Notes under the pieces: model-generated
Told to the model about the DNA's origin: nothing
Seen by the model: the letters and a program-made list of their open reading frames with translations, nothing else
The model's database searches: none
Shown here: piece after piece, positions 17,747 through 40,483 of the stretch
How positions within the stretch are numbered: position 1 is the first letter of the stretch
Layout of the letters: the number at the start of each line of letters is the position of its first letter
Source: Clavelina lepadiformis
Lineage: Eukaryota; Chordata; Ascidiacea; Aplousobranchia; Clavelinidae
Direction: 5' to 3'
DNA length: 64,000 bases
NCBI RefSeq assembly: GCF_947623445.1
Contig: NC_135242.1
Coordinates: 21,700,001 to 21,764,000 of the forward strand
Translations under genes and position numbers: made by a program

Positions 17747-18415
17747 CTACTTGACATATTTTTCCATAAACTTCTTATGAAATTCAGATCGAAGTGTGTC
17801 GTTTATAAAATGCTGTTTGATTTTATCCGATTCTCCTCTTGCACAATTTTTGAATACCACGTCATCATCCCACCTCCGTTTCACAGCAAAAGAAGAAGTC
17901 TTTCCTCCTCCAGACAGAAGTGGATTACCGCTTAAAATGTTTTCTGTTCTGATTCTCTCCTCCTCTTCCTTTTGTTCCTGCTCCCGCTTGGAAGCTTCCT
18001 CCGCTCTCTCTTTTTTAATCCGATTAAGTTCCGCCATCAACTCGGCAGTATCATCTTCAGAATCATCAGAATCACTTCCGCTATCACTGTCCACAGGATC
18101 ATCAGCATCCAAGTTTGATGCAGAGACATGATCAATTCTTTGGCGTTTTTGGTTATCTCGTGAAGATCTGCTGCTGCTTGAATCACTTGAACGTTTGTCT
18201 GAACGTGAAACACGCTCCCTCTCTTCTAAGTCGTAACGAAGATCTCGGCTACGAATATCGTCAGGAGCATTTTGACCTGTTTGTCTGTACTTCAGTTTCG
18301 TATGGCTGGGCAAATCGCGACTTGAATATTGTTTAGATAATTTGCCCAAATCACCTTCACCGCGAGATGACCCACCTTTTGCAGGAGCAAAAGTTGCCCT
18401 GTGTGCCGTAGTCAT
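17747..18415 (-). CDS. CWC15: CWC15 spliceosome-associated protein homologue
   Basis: A single uninterrupted exon encodes 222 residues, near the usual family length. CWC15 is a component of the Prp19/CDC5L-associated active spliceosome in the nucleus. The hallmark N-terminus is [15 protein letters not shown], followed by [21 protein letters not shown] charged, serine-rich linker follows, with the run [21 protein letters not shown] coiled-coil-like helix contains [20 protein letters not shown]. The C-terminus has NPLLSGG, the conserved [20 protein letters not shown] and a tail ending KFMEKYVK. The start is fixed by the conserved MTTAHR. It lies tail to tail with ATG3. It has no intron although most neighbours are intron-rich. 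Confidence 0.96.
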
Positions 18416-19124
18416 AACTTTTAATCGTTTTTTACTTCAAAAAACTCCAGTAGAATTTCCCAGGAACAAACTTCAAACAACGCTAATGCCACTAAAAAGA
18501 AATGCAGGTATGAGTTGGGGAATTTTTTTCACAGTAAAGCCCAATAATTTTTTGCTAAGTGCAAACCCCTAAAATACTTTTGGTAAGGCACTCTATATTG
18601 CTTTGAAATTTTGAAGTAACATACTTTTTATTTTTATATTTTTAAGTGATCATAGTTACATATTTTTCTTGTAAATTTATATTGTCTTTTAAAAAATATA
18701 AACCCTTTTTTGTGTTAAATTGTAATGGCTTTTAAGATTTCTTTTACTAGCTAAAAAATTCCACCAGAAGACAAGAATTGTGAATTGTGGAGTGGAGTCT
18801 GTTGTTATTGTTAATCAAAAGGTGATTGTATGTTGGTGATGTTGTGTTGGTCCTTCTTGGAGGTGAGTTTTTTGTTTAAATTTGCAAGTTAGAAGTTATA
18901 GAAATACATGGTGAGATCTTATGTCGCTGTCTGTTTTGTGTCATCTGCCCTGACCGGGCTTCACCAGCTCATAAGTTCTGAAAATTATGGTACGGCAGTT
19001 TTCGACGAAGAATCGTGCCAGCAAAGACGCAAATTTTGTCGTGATGGCGTGCACCAAAGCCTTAATTCTTTGTTTATTTATCATAAATTGGCGTTCAAAG
19101 AACCAGCTTTTTTTGTTTTCATTA

Positions 19125-21089
19125 CACTGGTCAACACGATTTTTTATGCCAAAGATTTGACAACGATTTTAGGCTAATTTGGGGTCGCTGATTTCAAAAA
19201 TGGCAATCATTTTTCTCAATTGGCTCTAGTTTTTGAGATATTTAGATTTTTCACTTTCGGAAATTCCACTCATACCACATATAACGCAATACTAGGTTTC
19301 AGGTCTCAGCCAACTGTAATACACTTGGACAATAGCCAGTAATATAGTCAAATGCATAAATATCACAATACTAAATCAATCAGTGCGTAATAAGTCTATT
19401 TTTATATATAGTTGCTGGTGAATCACTTTTTGTATGACTTTTTTTATGGCGGACGTCAGTACAATAATGCTGAAAACACCAACAATAGTCTGCCATCATG
19501 TTTTTCTCCCATCTGCCCTGGTATCTTTCTTCCATCACCTTTATGTCCTGATGAAATCTCTCCCCTTGTTCTTCAGAAAAATCTCCCAAATTGTCAGGAA
19601 ATTTATCCAAATGGCTGTGGAGATAGTGCACTTAAATGCTCATATTTGCCCCTACCTGTTGGTAGGCCTCGAGCATATTTTCCACCAGCTCTGGATAGTT
19701 TTCTGCTTTGTGGTTTCCAAAAAGTTCTTCGCCACAGACACAAAACAAGACCAAGCTTTGAATTCCACATTGTTCATGCTTGTTCCAAATTTGAATGATT
19801 GATTAATTTGCGAATTTGAGGCCCATCAAAAATGCCTGCTTTCAATTTTTCGATTGTCAGTTTTGGAAAACGTCTACAAAAACTTTTACAACAATCACAT
19901 TTGCCTGACATGGAGAGGTGGTAAAATGATCTTCTTTCTTTGAAACAAAGGTTCTTTAATCACATTTGCTTTACCTACTTTCAGGTCTTCTCTTGTGAAC
20001 CATGCCTTTTTTACCCAGTGCTGGATTTTTGCCCTGCTGTCCCACAAGCACATAAAGCAGGGATAATTATTTTATCCACTTTGCTGCCCAAGCAAAAAAT
20101 TTCACCATCTTTAAGTCAACACAAATCGACCACTGGTGCTCAGCATAGCAGATCTTCCGTACAACTAATTGAACGTTTTCATACTCTTCTTTCAGTTTTG
20201 TAGAGATGCATAGCAGTTGCCATTATGCAACAGAATGCATTTCAAACTTCTGGTAGAGCTGTCTATAAACAATCGCCAGTCTTCTTGTTTGTAGTCTAGG
20301 AATTTTCATTTTGATGAGAAGTCCAGTTATATCATTTCAATATACAAGGTCTGCATCTTGACTGAAGAAGGAAGGAGTTCCTCTTCTCTAGTCCGGTAAG
20401 CTGTTATCTTTGCATCCGCCTTTAGACAGTTCTTCTCCTTCAGTCTGGAAGCTGAAACCTCAGATGCTTCTTTTGATAAGTTAAGGTCTCTGATAAATTC
20501 CTTTTGTGTGAACTGTTCGAGAGTGGAAGAACTTTCTTTGTAATCAATAAAACTGTCACCATTTGCTTCACTATGTTTCCTTTCATGCTTTTCCTCAATA
20601 TCTGTTTCTTGAAAATCTGGTACTGATGTAAACGCAGGTACGGGAATGCTTTTGCAGTGCTCAACCGGTCGCCTTACTAACTAGTTTTAAGAAGAGTAAC
20701 GCTTTATACACCTGCAACTCGAAAGAAGCAAACTTGTTCAAGGTCAGCGATTCTTGCCTTCAGTGCATTAAAAATTTCAAGAAATCAGGAGAAATTAGCG
20801 CATTTTTATCAGTACATCAACAAATAAGGCAGGTTTATTTAATAAGAATCACAATTGAGTCTATTCTGAGGTTTCAACCCAAACACAAACAATGACGTGA
20901 TAGCTAAAACACTGTCACTAATGCCAGAAATAGTGAAAAATGCTGAAATAAAGAAAATGACTATATCTCGAAAACTAGAACCAATTCAGCAAAACCAATG
21001 CCAAATTCGGAATCAGCGACCTCAAATTACCCTAAATCCGTTGAAACATCGCTGGCATCTCAAAAAAAATTTTTTTTTGTTGGGCAGTG
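19125..21089 (-). mobile_element. DNA transposon with CACTG termini, long inverted repeats and TTA target duplication
   Basis: The left end reads CACTGGTCAACACGATTTTT. The right end read inward is CACTGCCCAACAAAAAAAAA. Inverted similarity then continues for about 140 bp or more, including the matching blocks ATCAGCGACC, CAAATTA-CCTAAA and TCTCAAAAACTAGAGCCAATT. The trinucleotide tta abuts both ends (19122-19124 and 21090-21092). Both flanks belong to one older repeat, so the boundaries are well constrained. The 1,965-bp element encloses a decayed minus-strand coding region. CACTG ends with a 3-bp duplication fit the CACTA/EnSpm (CMC) group, but the superfamily is an inference from the ends. 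Confidence 0.8.
19380..20690 (-). pseudogene. Decayed gene of an orphan transposon-borne protein family
   Basis: Conceptual translation of the minus strand, interrupted by several stops and frame changes, shows in order: SSSTLEQFTQKEFIRDL, WRLFIDSSTRSLKCILLHNG, NYPCFMCLWDSRAKIQHW, FDGPQIRKLINHSNLEQA, NNVEFKAWSCFVSV, ENMLEAYQQVGANMSI, HYLHSHLDKFPDNLGDFSEE, QGERFHQDIKVMEERYQG and MMADYCWCFQHY. I recall the same series of blocks in uncharacterised multicopy proteins of insects and cnidarians. The spacing of an Asp-bearing beta strand (FIDSS) and a late Glu (GERFHQD) is compatible with an RNase H-like DDE transposase, but that is inference. Its location inside 19125-21089, between the inverted repeats, indicates that it belongs to the transposon. 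The copy cannot encode an intact protein. Confidence 0.7.
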
Positions 21090-21425
21090 TTATCAATCAA
21101 CGTGAAGAAAAAAATTTCTGTGTACATGTTGATCTATCTCGTGCATACAGGTGCCACACTTTTCAGTATGGTCAGGCTGCCACAGTTTATGAATTTGGAG
21201 AAAAACAACTTCAGTAAATGGCTAGTTAATTAAGCAAGTAGTATTTTCTTACTTTGATAACTTGCGGCCCATAAAGTAGAATTTAGCTAATTTTCTACTT
21301 AAAATGACATATTAGTTTTTCAAAAGTCTAAAGTAATCCAAAGCTAACCTCCTCAGACCCAATCTCTCTTAAGTCAGGACTGAGTTACCTCGATACTAAA
21401 TCTGAAAAATAGTCAAACATTAGCT

Positions 21426-30152: not shown

Positions 30153-32249
30153 TTATGTCCGAGCAAACGAGAACGATGGAGGCAGATGACCAGACATCAC
30201 AGTTGGGGAATGTTTCCCTGTCATAAATGTCGGAGACTGGGTACGCTGCATCACAATCTGATCATATTGTTCGATGAGATGCGGATTATAATTTTCAATG
30301 CGACCACGTAAAATACTTGCCCCAAGAAATTTGGCGAGCCCAATCAGGCAATCTTGTGCTGCTGCAACAGTAAGCTGGACGTCACTTGACAAGGCATAAA
30401 AAATGGCATCGAAAAAGGTTTCGATGTGCATTTTAAAAGCTCGCTTGCCGATCCTGGAAGCTAGTGTGGGTAGCAATTTGCATGTGGTCTCCAAAAACAC
30501 AACATGCTGGGAGAATTGCTTGGAACTTAAAGCTTTTGTAATAAATGGTAGAAGTGTGGTGACTTTCTGTGGATAATATGTTGCCAGTTCCGCAATCAGG
30601 TAAAGGCAACCATCCGAACGCTCCCAGGGTTCTGACGGGCGCCGAAATTTACAATCACTGCATCCTCCTCGCCCACCTCTGCCCATTTTCGGTGCAAGCG
30701 AGCCACAAGAGTACATTTGCTGATCAGTGTGTCGTGGATCTGAAGTTTCGTGAAGATTTTTGACAACACCAAATTGAGCAGGACGCTTATCTAAACCGGT
30801 AAATCTGCCACTGTTTTCAGGCTGATTTGAAACTTCTTCTAATCCATCCTGGATCTCTTTGATGATGATTGGCAAGAGCTCATCACCATAAACCTTTGTA
30901 TATTTTGCTACGGCAGCTCCTGCACCTTCTCTCACAGATGGAATTGGATCTTTCAAATTTTCCAAGAAGAGACTGTAAAGTAAATCTCGCTTCACTTTTG
31001 CTTCAGATGCAAAACTAAGGATAAAATTACCGCAAGCGATGCAAGCAGCATCACGCACGGGCCAGCTGTCATCTTGGAAACACTCCAACAACGCGTCCAG
31101 CAATCGGTTCACATGATCTCGCACAGCTTCTGGTTTTATTTTGGTAGCGAGTTCAGAAATACAAGCACAGGCGGCCTCTCGTACGGCATGATTGTCTGCC
31201 TGAGTTGCTTCTATGTAGTAATCAACAACAAACGAGATGTATTTTTCCACAATGTCCTTGCCGTGACCATGAGATATTTGTCTCCAAGTTTCTTGCGAAT
31301 AAATGCGAACTCCTTCTGCTATGTAGTAACGATTGAGGCACATCCGTGGTATCAGGTCTGGAAAGAATTTCTCCTGTTCCTGGGTACCAGGAAAAGACAA
31401 CAAGAAATTTCTCACTGCAACTGAAGAAGCTAGTCTTACTTGAGACCAGTTATCTGCTAAGCCTTTGCCAAGGTATTTTGAAAACTGATCACCATATTTC
31501 AGTACAGAGTCACTAGTTGCGACTCCGTCAGTTTGGCCACAACGAACAATGGCGGCACAAACATTGTATCCAGTTTCCCTTACAAACCGATTCGTGTGGT
31601 TGAGAGCAGAAAAAAGTAAGTTGAGAAGCTCTTGAGTAATGTAAGGATTAAAGGTCTTTCCACATCCCTCAATCATGCACTGAAGACACTTCATGCTGGT
31701 TTCAAGATACCTCCATCCGGCTGATTCATGAAATATGTTAGCAGCGTTGGATGTTGTAGGACTGCCACGACCATCACCTTCCTCATGAAGATCACCCTCA
31801 ATTTCTCGCTTTAGGTCTTTATGTAGAAGATTCAGCACAACATCACTGCTCTTGCTATAGACTTCACTCCCTTTCAATTTGCAAAGAGCACCAAGTAATT
31901 CTCCAGCTTCGGTCCTTACTCTTACTTCCGGGTTGGCGAGGCACTTAAGAGCGAAACCATGAAAGAAATCTGTTATGGCTTCATCCACAACAGACCCACC
32001 ATCATCTTGACGAATGGAGTTGTCAATGATGCATCTTACTCCTAGCAAACATCCATGTAAGGCTTCCCACGGAGTTGAGTCATTGGATGAGGATGCATTC
32101 TCTTGAAATTTTGCCAGGAGCGCTTGGGCAATTTTATCTTTTTCTGAACTTTTCAAAAAAGATTTTAAGTGAACGATTCCTTTGTCTCTTTCGAGTTTCT
32201 GTTCACTTTGTAACAACTTGTTCAATTCATCCACTTGTCGGTCTGACAT
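30153..32249 (-). CDS. HEAT-repeat protein with a CxxC-containing insert, single exon
   Basis: One uninterrupted frame of 698 residues beginning MSDRQVDELNKLLQSEQKLE. It consists almost wholly of helical HEAT/ARM-type repeats, recognisable by turns such as WPVRDAACIACGNF, HAVREAACACISELATK, PSVREGAGAAVAKYTK, RVRTEAGELLGALCK and RFVRETGYNVCAAIV. Between repeats, near residue 520, sits a distinctive insert GRGGRGGCSDCKFRRPSEPW followed by SDGCLYLIAELATYYP. I think similar GGC-DC-F-SEPWE sequences occur in HEAT proteins of other eukaryotes but cannot name the family. No membrane segment, signal peptide or enzyme motif is visible, so a scaffold or adaptor role is the most that can be inferred. 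It lacks introns, unlike its neighbours FNTA and GTF2F2 on the same strand. Confidence 0.85.
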   Translation of the reverse strand: MSDRQVDELNKLLQSEQKLERDKGIVHLKSFLKSSEKDKIAQALLAKFQENASSSNDSTPWEALHGCLLGVRCIIDNSIRQDDGGSVVDEAITDFFHGFALKCLANPEVRVRTEAGELLGALCKLKGSEVYSKSSDVVLNLLHKDLKREIEGDLHEEGDGRGSPTTSNAANIFHESAGWRYLETSMKCLQCMIEGCGKTFNPYITQELLNLLFSALNHTNRFVRETGYNVCAAIVRCGQTDGVATSDSVLKYGDQFSKYLGKGLADNWSQVRLASSVAVRNFLLSFPGTQEQEKFFPDLIPRMCLNRYYIAEGVRIYSQETWRQISHGHGKDIVEKYISFVVDYYIEATQADNHAVREAACACISELATKIKPEAVRDHVNRLLDALLECFQDDSWPVRDAACIACGNFILSFASEAKVKRDLLYSLFLENLKDPIPSVREGAGAAVAKYTKVYGDELLPIIIKEIQDGLEEVSNQPENSGRFTGLDKRPAQFGVVKNLHETSDPRHTDQQMYSCGSLAPKMGRGGRGGCSDCKFRRPSEPWERSDGCLYLIAELATYYPQKVTTLLPFITKALSSKQFSQHVVFLETTCKLLPTLASRIGKRAFKMHIETFFDAIFYALSSDVQLTVAAAQDCLIGLAKFLGASILRGRIENYNPHLIEQYDQIVMQRTQSPTFMTGKHSPTVMSGHLPPSFSFART

Positions 32250-33002
32250 GTTATGACAGCAGTTATGAAAATGTCTTTTTAACTGTAAATGTTACTCCTA
32301 ACAGTTACCTAAAAGTAACGTATTATAAGATTATTGAAAGCAGGAAACCAGTTCGCATAAGTTGAAAAAAACATCGAAAAATGAGAATGGTCTTAAACAA
32401 ATGGTGACGAAACATCATTGCAAACATATAAAAGTCGCATCCTTTTAATTGATTATTCTAGAAAAGATTTGATTATTTTAGAAGCCTTGAAATCACAATC
32501 ACAATAAAACATGGCAACTTGTAGATAACATGTATTTATACATAACAGACCAAACTAGAACAAATTCAACTATTATTTTCAGGATATAAATTAACAATTT
32601 TTTCAATCTTGCAACAAGTGCTCAGTATAATGATATATTACACGCACTATACTTTGCAATAATAGTTCTATTGTCATGTGCCCTCCATCTAGTTCGTCAG
32701 AGTTAACCAAGTCTATGGCAGTAAATAACAGCTTGACAATAACAATGCCAACAAACAGAATAAAATAACGTTTGATTTACAAATAGGTTTGATTTCAGCG
32801 TTTCAACGTTTGATTTCAGCCACTAAAAATTCTACATTTCTTAATGTCAAGAATCTGAAATAAACCTGTTTTAAACATGTGCACTATTGACACATCACGC
32901 ATCATATATTGACTAATATTAATCCAAAAGAAAATGCTTTTTCTGATTAGACATATCTCGCGCTCCAGTGCTACTAAACAAGTCCACAGTTACAACGCTT
33001 TT
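32250..33002. other. Spacer between the HEAT gene and GTF2F2
   Basis: About 750 bp of AT-rich sequence with no coding signal. It should contain the GTF2F2 3' UTR and the HEAT gene promoter. A short tandem CGTTTGATTT...CGTTTGATTT duplication lies near 32768-32815; otherwise I see nothing. Confidence 0.4.
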
Positions 33003-34714: not shown

Positions 34715-37700
34715 TCTCCCCTTATACAGGGAATAGAAAAGCACAACACAACACACTACACAACTAAAACTATATTTCTTCAATGAGTCGACGAGAATGT
34801 TTTGGAGTTCGCCGAGACCGTCGTGGCAACACCACGTTAGTAGGAGGCGGTCCATCCACAAAATTATTTGAGGTAAAAGGAACTATGGTATTCAGTTCAC
34901 TGCTGACCACTGGTGGTGATTGTTCCTCCGTTGAAGAAGCTTCCTTGCAGGTACCCATTTCATTCTTACTTTTATGCAGGTGAGATCTGTTTCGACGCAG
35001 TATTGCCCCATTGTCCAACTGAACGAGGTATGACCTCAACCCGACCTTTCGCAGTATTTTTCCTTTTTCTCCCCAGCGTTTGGTCTTGTGGTCATATGTG
35101 AATACGACATCATTTACGTGCAGCTCACAAAGACTTTTTACTCCTTTGTCATAATAGTGTTTTTGTTCCAGCTTTTCTGCCCAGACTGGCCGTTCAACAC
35201 CTGGTTCAGGATTGTACAAGTTGTTACAGAGCGATAGATTGTTTCTAATGCGGCGGCCCATCAAGAGTTGCGCTGGAGAGTATCCGCATTTCAAAGGGGT
35301 ACTCCTATACACCAGTAGCGCTAGATTGAAGTCTTTTCCTGAGGCGTGGCTTTTTCTCAGTAGGTCTTTTACTGTGTGTACAGTTTTCTCGGCTAGGCCA
35401 TTTGACTTCGGATAGTGAGGGCTTGATGTCTTGTGATGGAAACGCCAGGTTTCTGCAAACACTTTGAATTCATGGGAATTAAAAGGGGGGCCATTATCGC
35501 TGAAGACGACTTGAGGGATTCCGTGGCGGGAGAAGATTTGTTTTAACCTCATTATGACTTGTTTTGAACAAGTTGACGGTAATGCACATACTTCAGGGTA
35601 ATTTGAATAGTAGTCTCCAACAACCAGGTAAGTAGTGTTACACCATTGAAAGAGGTCAATACCTACTTTTTCAAACGGTAGCATTGTTGGTTCATGTGGT
35701 AAAAGAGGCTCCTTCTGGTGCTGATTTCTGTATGCAGCGCAGGTTGCACAGCCGGAGACCTTGTTGACTATGTCCTTGTTGATCCTTGGCCAAAACACCG
35801 CTTCTCTTGCTCGCCTCTTGCATTTCTCCTCGCCCAGGTGTCCTTCATGTATTATCTCAAGAATGGATTTCCTTAGTGATTTTGGTATTACGAGGCGGTC
35901 TCCCTTCAGAATGATGCCATCTTTTACTGCAAGCTCATCTCGGTAATTCCAATACTCTGAGATTAATGTTTTACAGCCTGCCTTGCTAGATGGCCAACCT
36001 TGCTGTACGTATTGGATGAGGTTTGTCAGCTGTTCATCCTTGGCTGTTTCTTCTCTCAGTTGACTTAGGAATTTGTTGGTTACTGGTAGAGTACTTATTA
36101 TCATGTCTTCATGCGATTCAACCAACGAAACTGTCGAAGATGTCTGTGGCTTGGTAGCACTTCTTGATAGCGTATCAGCTGTGTGCATGAATTTACCAGG
36201 TTTATAGACTAGTGTAATATCATAAATTTGTAGTCTAATCATGAGTCGTTGCACTCTTAAGGGGCAGTTGTTGAGTTGCTTTTTGAACAAGTGCATTAAT
36301 GGCTTGTGGTCACTTTCGACTTCAATGGACTGTCCATAGATATACTGATGAAAGCGCTCGCAGGCATATACAGTTGCCAAGAGTTCTTTTTCAATTTGTG
36401 CGTATCTTGTTTCTGCAGGTACCATTGCTCTTGCAGCATACGCTACTGGATGCCAATCCGAATCATGCCACTGCAGGAGTACTGCCCCGATGCCTTCCTT
36501 GGACGCATCTGCAGATATTTTTATTGCTACCTTGGGATCAAAGAATTTCAAAACTGGTACTTCCGAGACTAATCGTTTGAGCTCATTCCACGCACTTTCA
36601 TGTGTGGAGTCCCAGTTCCACTCACTTTTGTAGTGGGTCAATGCGCGCAAAGATGCGGTTTTGATTGAGAGTGATGGTAAGAACCTGCCGAGATAATTTA
36701 TCATACCCAGGAAGCGTTGTACATCCTTTTTGTTAGAAGGCCTTTGCATGTTGTTGACAGCATCAACCTTTAGTGGATCAGGTTTCAGACCTTCCTTACT
36801 TAACACATCACCCATGAATGTCAATTGTTGAACCCCTAGTATGCATTTGTCTTTGTTTAGTTTAAGATTGGCATCACGTGTTGCTTGCAGTACGTTTCGA
36901 AGTCGCTTGTCATGTTCTTCTTTGGTAGTGCCCCATACAATAATGTCGTCCATTGATGTGTCGACGCCAGGCAGATGCGCATATATTAGATGGACGGCTT
37001 TGTGAAACACCTCAGGAGCTGAGGAAATGCCAAATGGCAGTCTTAAAAAGCGATATCGCCCAAACGGCGTGTTAAACGTACACAGCTTCGAACTGCCTTC
37101 ATCTAGCTTCATTTGCCAAAATCCTGACAAAGCATCTAACTTAGAGAAGTATTTCGCATTGGCAAACTGGGACGTCAATTCCTCTCTCGTTGGCAGGTTG
37201 AAATGTTCTCTTAAGATTGCCCTGTTTAAGTTGCGCGGATCAAGACACAGGCGTAAGTTGCCGTTCTTTTTATTTACCACTACTAACGAGTTAACCCAAG
37301 AAGTAGGTTCATTTACTTTTACAATTACATTGAGCTCTTCGAGGCGTATTAACTCGTTTCTCAGTTTTTCTCTCATGGCAAATGGAACCTTTCTTGAAGG
37401 GTGGACTACCGGAACAGCTTCTGCGTCAACTCTTATGACATGCTCACCTGGAAGACAACCAAGACCATTAAAAAGATCTTTGAATTCGTGCAGGAGAGTG
37501 GAATAAGCATTTGTCTTGTAGACGGTGGACACCCGTTGTATCAGGCCAAGCAGCTTCGAAGACTTCAGTCCTATGATTGATTGTGAGTCTTTGCAGTTAA
37601 CAATAACAAACTCTACGTTTTTTGATTTGGGGCCAACCTTCGTTTGTACCGTACACGTACCGAGGACAGGAATTTTGTGGTTTCCATAGCCCGTAAGTGC

Positions 37701-37835
37701 AATAGAGGTTTTCTTAATTGTAGGTGTGTGACGTAACGTTTTGTAGTCGGAAACGGTTATTAAGTTCACCTCAGCACCTCGAGGTATGAGGTGATACCAC
37801 GAGCGGAATTTTCTCCAGGAATGCAAGGTACGCAA
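34400..37835 (-). mobile_element. Ty3/gypsy LTR retrotransposon fossil (pol region plus candidate 3' LTR)
   Basis: An LTR-retrotransposon copy on the minus strand. Its pol region (37835-34770) is a single frame of 1,021 codons containing, in order, the end of an aspartic protease-like domain, reverse transcriptase, RNase H, the zinc-binding integrase N-domain, and the integrase core plus C-terminal region. The domain order RT-RNase H-integrase is that of the Ty3/gypsy group. A gag region and a 5' LTR were not recognised, so the copy looks broken, with at least one substantial break. The long open pol frame suggests it is fairly young. It lies directly upstream of GTF2F2 in the same orientation. 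Confidence 0.85.
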
Positions 37836-40483
37836 AATTACGGCCGTCTATATTGGCCTTAATTTAATTCTTCCATGATGTTGCATGTTTACCAGCAATA
37901 TTTTTCATAGACATCTCAAAATTAAGAGTCAATGCAGTGCATTTGCCCGACAAACTAGAGAACTGAGTTAAAATATTGGGTCGTGGTTGCTAATATCTGC
38001 ACTTTGTCTAGTAAAACCTTTTACATTTTAGTGGGGTTTTTCTTCTTCCATCCAGACACACAGGCCGGTTCCATCTTGACGGTGACACAACGCTTATGAC
38101 CTGCCAAACTATCAGCGTAACTTTTGTTTTATATTAAATGTGTTTAAATTATGTGTTTTATGTTAAATTATGTTTAAATAATGTGTTTGTAATTTGGCTT
38201 GGTGGCCGTGCTGGCGCTGATAACTTTTTCACATTCTCATATTAGTCTGTAATGCACGTGTTTGCCTTCGAGGCCTTGTCACATTTGTCCATCCAATTTG
38301 TGGAAATTATTGTCTGCTAATATGTTTGCGACCACCTGTGTCAGAACAATTTTTTCGTTCCCCACATTAAAGACAAAAACAAAAAGATGAATGAAAAAAA
38401 TGAACTGAAATATTTATTAAATTGGAAATTGCAACTGGGTCTTAATCGCTCGTACAAAACTTTAATTACACTTTAGAAAATAGCCAAACTAGGAAAGAAA
38501 AACAATAAAATCTGTCGAAAACCATTCTTATGTCGGGTAGAAGAGTAGTGAAATTGACTGTTAATTTTCGTGGAGAACCAATTTATTAGCATTACAATGA
38601 GAAACAGTATTTAATGCCACTAATGCTATTGAGAGCTACTACAGGAGGCTGAGTAGCTATAGCAATTCATTCTATCATAGCATCTTCGAAATAAATGTTT
38701 CACAGCACTAGGCAACAAAAATTGCAAACATTAATTATGCTTTCCTTGAATAAATATTCAAAATTTTTTTTTAAGTCTCTGATTCTCTGTACAAGCTTAC
38801 ATGGTGTGGTTGGTTTTAATTAGTCTAGAAATATGTTTAAATTCTTGTGAAATAAAATTTTCAGCAAGCAGCGATTTCTGAGTAAACCAACCTTTTTAGA
38901 AACATTAGCCAAAGGCTTGAGATAAAATGAATTGAGCGTTATTGCAGACCTTTTGCATACTAAAACGCTTGAATTAAGATTTAAGCCACGTGATACTTTT
39001 TGATGACATTTGGCTATTTCTCTTATTTTTTACAATGCAGATTTCTTTTGTTAGCTTTTACAATTTTGGGAGAGTGTAGTTTAAATTTTCAAAGTATGTT
39101 TATATTTTGAATAGATACCATACAAAGCTTTTCCATAAAAATTGGAATGTAAAGTGAGGGCAAGTCCAAAATCAGGTTGGCCTTAAATCAAAAAATAGTT
39201 GTCAATAAAAATACCGCTGAAAGGTTTTTTAATAATATGTAGTAGGCCTAGTTAAGTAGTTTTTGCCAAAATTGTATCACAAATTGGCCTCTTATAATGA
39301 CGGAGACCGTTGACGCTATGGTGTCACAATATAAAACAATTTACTTGATGACTGTGATATGTAATAAGTTAGGTATGTTAGTAGTGGTAGGCTAGCTAAA
39401 ACGGTTTAGAATTTAGATGGAATACGTCTCCATAGGTAGGTGATTAGTAGCAGGTGATGTTGATTTTCAGCATAGGAATGTCGCAGAAGACAGCACACGA
39501 ACTGGTGAAGCATTCCTGTTTTTACCACAGTTACCTTTGCTGGACTACAGGTTAGAGGCAGCAGCCAAGACTGCATGGTATGCTACTAGGCCTATAAGTT
39601 AGCATCCACAATTCTACATTTACCACTAAAAATATTGTACAGTGTACAATGACATCAACATTAAATTAGTTTAGACTTATTTAATGCCTATATTTGTAAT
39701 TTATTTTATGTCTATAGGCTATATGATTGCGTAATCTATAATTTTTGTTCATAAATAGAGCTGCTGAGAATAAAACATTAAAGAAACCAGTGTTTGTACA
39801 AACACTTTCCTAGGACCCAAGCAAAGCTCAATCGTCATTAAATTTTGAATATGTCATTTTTCATAAACGACGTTCAATGAAGGATGCGTTTGTGGTTACC
39901 GACCACAACCACTGTAATAGTGAATGGTAAAATAATGATTTTGTTAACTTCTTGTATACCTGTGTAGAATAAGAACATATCTAAGTATCGTGACAACATA
40001 ACAAACGGGATATTTACTACAACAAACTATCCGTGAGTTATAAGCGACCTAATTTCAAGCAGAATTTTGCTTGCCAGCAAAGTTTTCTTGACTGCAAAGA
40101 ACTTCCGAACTTATGTAGTATATATTGCTTTTTTAGTTGTGGCTTGTATTCATATTGCTGCCCAAAATATTACGCAGCATGAAATATAGGCTATACGTAG
40201 ACTATTATAGTTAGTAGGCTGTTACCAATACGTAGAGCTCGAAATCATAACTCTGCCTGCAGAGAAAAGTAGACACCTCGGATAGCAGAAGGCCAGGACG
40301 GAGACGTTGTTTTGTATTGACGTCTTCATACCAAAAGCAGCCACCTGCTACATTGTTTGGCTTACTTTCGAAAGTACTGTATATGAACAAAAAATTCTTT
40401 TTTTTCGGAAAAAACTTGTTTTTGTCTTTGAATTGCATAAGCCTTTTGCAATAGGGTGTTGCTTACAAACTAACCGCAATATT
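37836..40483. other. Gene-free interval with a dispersed repeat
   Basis: About 2.6 kb without a supportable gene. Repeat C copy 2 lies at 39150-39600. There is a short tandem motif around 38130-38190 (repeated TGTGTTTTATGTTAAATTATG-like units). Otherwise AT-rich sequence with nothing recognisable. Confidence 0.4.
39150..39600 (+). repeat. Repeat C, copy 2
   Basis: Colinear blocks shared with 26605-27180, including GGCAAGTCCAAAATC, AATAGTTGTCAA, AATACCGCTGAA and TCAGCATAGGAATGTCGCAG. By eye, roughly two thirds of bases agree in the aligned blocks. Confidence 0.5.

Follow-up and report, generated by a model that had tools for sequence, protein, structure and literature searches.

Is the decayed, multicopy protein that lies between a pair of inverted repeats the transposase of the element around it, and to which group of transposons does that element belong? 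The element in question occupies positions 19125-21089 (1965 bp) of a Clavelina lepadiformis window, by which we mean the whole stretch of 64,000 nucleotides analysed (C3:21700001-21764000); the host genome searched comprises 209 Mb in 95 contigs. At a probability of about 90%, it is a DNA transposon that moves by cut and paste and belongs to the Chapaev3 group, on the RAG/Transib branch of the CMC assemblage, placed there by published description. Chapaev3 itself is a known transposon type that is common in animals, and the window element is a broken copy. The inverted ends, the ATWAT target with its TWA duplication, the empty site, the open sister genes and the predicted catalytic core together make this the best explanation. 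A multicopy family lacking a Pfam model gains a likely function and mechanism: it would act as a cut-and-paste transposase belonging to the RAG1/Transib branch, and both its target site and the empty site are demonstrated.

Element ends, target and empty site

The element is delimited by two terminal inverted repeats, one on the 3' side of the gene (19125-19264, plus strand), beginning CACTGGTCAACA, and the other on its 5' side (20950-21089, minus strand), ending GTTGGGCAGTG. Over the outer 140 bp the repeats are identical at 104 of 128 aligned bases, and their top local score is 95, as against 35 or less in 500 shuffles. Each is bordered by a TTA (19122-19124, preceded by A; 21090-21092, followed by T), giving the context A-TTA...TTA-T; the repeats of about 140 bp bounded by TTA that the first-pass annotation had described are hence borne out. 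The first base of the left repeat is reached by 38 of 40 scored genome matches. Across 28 loci (L002-L029), the point at which homology to the window starts lies no more than 8 bp from the left end in 26 loci (all except L007 and L014). In 24 loci homology runs out no more than 11 bp from the right end, although for five of these (L010, L016, L020, L022 and L024) the fetched stretch itself terminates there.

When joined via one TTA, the window flanks match across the junction at no fewer than 38 other genome places (40 of 866 candidates scored), and all 13 empty sites fetched are uninterrupted, bearing TTA (nine), TTG (two), TCA (one) or GTA (one). The element therefore inserted into an old interspersed repeat, the left and right parts of which lie at 19005-19124 and 21093-21209, duplicating three bases. 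Copies of this target repeat, with 866 first-look candidates, are 77-85% alike.

Junctions were further compared within the window's subfamily, where 22 copies were readable on both sides and 21 were kept (L003 shares its insertion with L002 and was dropped). Thirteen of these 21 independent copies carry duplications of 3 bp or longer, a number reached by 1 in 10,000 random re-pairings of the junctions. The other eight (L005, L006, L010, L011, L013, L017, L021 and L022) are without a clean 3-bp duplication, having 0-2 bp by exact match. Most subfamily copies are only about 1-3% diverged from their nearest relatives, despite these irregular junctions.

The target is also documented by one young family (L034, L036, L041-L043 and L051-L108), at least 27 copies of which, including the query's own, are identical over the first 85 bp (40 of 82 candidates scored). 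Both junctions were obtained for 30 young insertions, outside which stand L035, L039, L040 and L044 (one end found) and L109 and L110 (one side fetched). After removal of two insertions with a mutated end, all 28 readable ones sit at ATWAT; 27 of them are independent, as L079-L082 represent two copies of one insertion. Exact duplication of TTA or TAA between A and T is seen in 24, and 4-bp duplications at ATWAT in four (ATAA, TAAT and, twice, TTAT). Random re-pairing of the flanks yields 3 bp or more in about half of the cases, against 28 of 28 observed, because only two triplets occur. The 4-bp duplications suggest a variable stagger. Imprecise cleavage leaving extra bases at the ends was also considered as the source of the uneven duplications in the window's subfamily. 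In the young family the supposed extra bases reduce to the 3- and 4-bp ATWAT duplications, for which variable stagger is the simpler reading in that family.

At the genome scale, CACTGGTCNACA occurs 676 times as against 67 for the reversed pattern, and ATWACACTGGTCNACA has 401 fitting sites as against none reversed. Among the first 100 places listed, 24 end pairs face each other at a distance of up to 3.5 kb, with the same duplication on both sides in all 24, and no pair faces away; three of the facing pairs have one common spacing and may be local duplicates.

The transposase, its relatives and the window copy

A conserved block of 60 amino acids (aa) from the protein has at least 150 matches in the genome, the window's own included (150 of 898 candidates were scored and all matched), in keeping with the multicopy family proposed earlier. 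Open frames of at least 568 aa contain 18 of these matches, one of which has a stop inside the matched part, and intact transposases are encoded by a compact open gene of 554-571 aa. The proposal that the family is transposon-borne also holds: by reading of the repeat listing, inverted arms flank the gene in 18 of 19 loci of about 9.9 kb selected for long frames, one arm being about 3 kb off in L035 and L049, and fitting arms being absent from L040. In these loci the gene fills most of the space between the ends and moves with them. At C2:13113257-13113811, two copies of the block stand in opposite orientation 0.2 kb apart, possibly through nesting or inverted duplication.

The first-pass annotation had suspected a DDE transposase, with the Asp of FIDSS and the Glu of GERFHQD as catalytic residues. 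The predicted fold matches RAG1 and Transib, with an RNase H core of their type, at an identity of 10-14% in the best rows of the fold comparison. Of the two outcomes that the first-pass annotation had named as refuting it, copies mostly outside inverted-repeat elements and a fold with no RNase H-like core, neither was observed, the first being judged on the 19 long-frame loci. In an alignment of relatives, D262, C335/C338, L383/H384 and H492/H497 are conserved in all 15 covering rows, E514 in all 14, and D316 in 14 of 15, with His in the remaining copy. This agrees with the suspected assignment, to which a second Asp (CVDLK) and the LH and H(4)H motifs are now added. Foldseek with the full model against PDB gave nothing at E ≤ 0.001, with RAG1 and Transib not among the 50 matches listed, and the BFVD fold search gave nothing at the same threshold. 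A Pfam scan of the window fragments and six intact proteins found no family above cut-off, and a six-member profile run against the sequences of solved structures gave two FYVE-type matches only (E 0.25 and 2.3). The PF06918 search of the genome had no match, with none in the controls either. Protein and profile searches of viral contigs yielded no relative and hence did not recover the Chapaev3 that Zhang et al. (2014, PMC4079192) name from a bracovirus, and the string GERFHQ had no occurrence in the literature searched.

The window gene itself runs on the minus strand in two frames with stops, covering about residues 122-558 of a 565-aa relative, and the decayed gene reported earlier between the ends is thus recovered, with the additional finding that its first ~120 codons, and with them the N-terminal domain, are absent. 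Frame -2 (19691-20677) holds pieces corresponding to about residues 122-470, with stops and frame breaks, and includes four features conserved in relatives: the first Asp codon (20261-20263, WRLFIDSS), the second (20115-20117, CVDLK), the C(2)C block PCFMCLWDSR (~20032-20066) and the LH block PPLH (~19908-19922). Frame -1 (19428-19802, about residues 435-565) holds the H(4)H block HYLHSH (~19611-19631) and the predicted catalytic Glu codon (19560-19562, GERFHQD), assigned by alignment. Judged from its sequence, the window copy has lost its N-terminal part and its intact reading frame, which makes it a non-autonomous derivative. Upstream of residue 122, no match exists in 22 of 23 copies tested, the window's included (exception L029). 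The window copy is 99.2% identical to L002/L003 and one indel apart, with different sites and duplications. Since near-identical truncated copies sit at different sites, the gene was most likely broken before window-type copies spread, these being moved by an enzyme supplied elsewhere.

Within subfamilies, the ratio of nonsynonymous to synonymous divergence (dN/dS) is 0.8-1.5 in five of six pairs, dS being 0 in the sixth; between subfamilies (five pairs), dS is saturated and dN is 0.33-0.45. On these comparisons, the genes appear to be under little selection after insertion and under constraint between lineages.

In a plausible mechanism, the transposase would pair the two ends of the element and, with two Asp and one Glu carried by an RNase H fold, cut beside CAC. 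The ends would then be joined to target DNA three bp apart in ATWAT, or four in a minority, with the N-terminal zinc domain probably aiding end recognition or dimerisation. The window copy, having lost that domain and its frame, would be one of a line of broken copies moved by the enzyme of intact relatives. In practical terms, copies that carry an annotation as uncharacterised proteins could be treated as transposons in genome masking, and open, little-diverged copies would allow tests of the chemistry of the group.

Elsewhere in the window, an open reading frame resembling the splicing factor CWC15 lies about 0.7 kb from the element (17747-18436, minus strand). Two further minus-strand frames have, by eye, the look of a HEAT-repeat protein (30153-32291, 712 aa) and of a Ty3/Gypsy-type polyprotein (34770-37847, 1025 aa).

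The N-terminal zinc domain

Intact copies carry a Cys/His-rich N-terminal domain, and its two Cys-x2-Cys pairs resemble those of ZAD, the zinc finger-associated domain with which many C2H2 zinc-finger transcription factors of animals begin. According to Kapitonov and Koonin (2015, PMC4411706), the zinc domain at the N-terminus of Chapaev3, named "Chapa", occurs in RAG1 as well. The link to RAG1 leans weakly positive here: hhalign gave a weak match (E 0.015, probability 2.9%), as did the N-terminal domain alone (E 0.002, probability 13.8%, with 1 of 300 shuffles as good), and RAG1_imp_bd matches 3 of 13 members (best E 0.01).

For ZAD, zf-AD (PF07776) matches 7 of the 13 transposase N-termini (best E 6.5e-4), all under the Pfam cut-off; therefore the domain is called ZAD-like only. 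Furthermore, zf-AD is the best non-self Pfam family of RAG1 (E 0.0028), and ZAD crystal structures are the top three of seven Foldseek matches of the N-terminal model. The genome has 12 zf-AD matches, all below cut-off, 11 of which are copies of the transposase domain (two by place). The best (25.7 bits, cut-off 28) is located outside transposases, at C9:12018549-12018740; by eye, it probably represents a genuine ZAD exon that an intron interrupts.

That the Chapaev3 zinc domain, the RAG1 N-terminal domain and ZAD are one homologous domain is a tentative proposal, with the odds somewhat against it. Weighing on the negative side are the low hhalign probability of the RAG1 alignment and two competing families: FYVE, which matches 5 of 13 members (E 0.015 at best), and a zinc ribbon, which matches 7 (E 0.077 at best). 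Homology to ZAD is likewise disfavoured by two tests that gave nothing: in hhalign of the N-terminal profile with the single sequence of the Grauzone ZAD, 123 of 250 shuffles scored as well, and the same profile found no ZAD among PDB sequences. The RAG1 N-terminus compared with the Grauzone ZAD stood hardly above shuffles (15 of 250 reached the score, with five aligned residues). The domain here also differs from ZAD in heading a transposase rather than C2H2 fingers. If the proposal were true, the dimerisation domain of ZAD factors would derive from Chapaev/RAG-type transposases, and one transposon domain would stand behind both a large insect transcription-factor family and the origins of the RAG1 N-terminus. 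A precedent for transposase-derived factors is offered by the ZBED genes, which come from hAT elements (PMC3606216).

Classification and comparison with known systems

The CMC placement made by the first-pass annotation stands, and its CACTA-like label gives way to a finer one, since the group is most likely Chapaev3 and not CACTA proper. An element of CACTA/EnSpm proper, a further CMC branch that shares this chemistry, would also have CAC...GTG ends and 3-bp duplications, and PMC12730594 gives C(2)C and H(3-4)H as common to EnSpm, Mirage, Chapaev, Transib and RAG1. This assignment is nevertheless improbable, given that the A-TWA-T site of 24 among the 28 young insertions with readable junctions, the compact gene of 554-571 aa and its LH and H(4)H motifs fit the published account of Chapaev3, and that none of the six intact proteins has Transposase_21, the Pfam family of EnSpm, among its listed matches at E ≤ 1.

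A separate lineage of the CMC/Transib branch, convergent with Chapaev3 on target and motifs, deserves slightly less credence still. It draws on the fact that the likeness to Chapaev3 rests on descriptions rather than on alignment to a reference Chapaev3 protein, and on the 4-bp duplications, as TWA was duplicated in all Chapaev3 elements that Zhang et al. (PMC4079192) examined. Against it, the duplicated sequence, flanking bases, termini, protein length and motif set are all as published there, where 3- to 4-bp duplications are also given for Chapaev elements generally. The idea that the conserved protein is a host or accessory gene that merely happens to sit in transposons, prompted by the listing of relatives as uncharacterised invertebrate proteins, is largely refuted: in the long-frame loci the protein occupies most of the stretch that separates the ends and travels with them, and its predicted core is of RAG1/Transib type.

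Transib duplications are 5 bp long. Those of the present family are 3-4 bp; therefore it is not filed as Transib. A RING finger, a further point of difference from RAG1/Transib, was not noticed here, no search having been aimed at it. The likeness is to the Chapaev3 elements Merrow, Garfield and Conan, as described by Zhang et al. (2014, PMC4079192): the ends are CAC...GTG, and TWA is duplicated between A and T, with the difference that in the present family four of the 28 young insertions show duplications of 4 bp. Most Chapaev3 transposases are apparently single-exon in that account, and one open frame of 554-571 aa here compares with 556 aa in silkworm Garfield. The C(2)C, LH and H(4)H motifs of that protein, compared by description, recur here together with the DDE triad.
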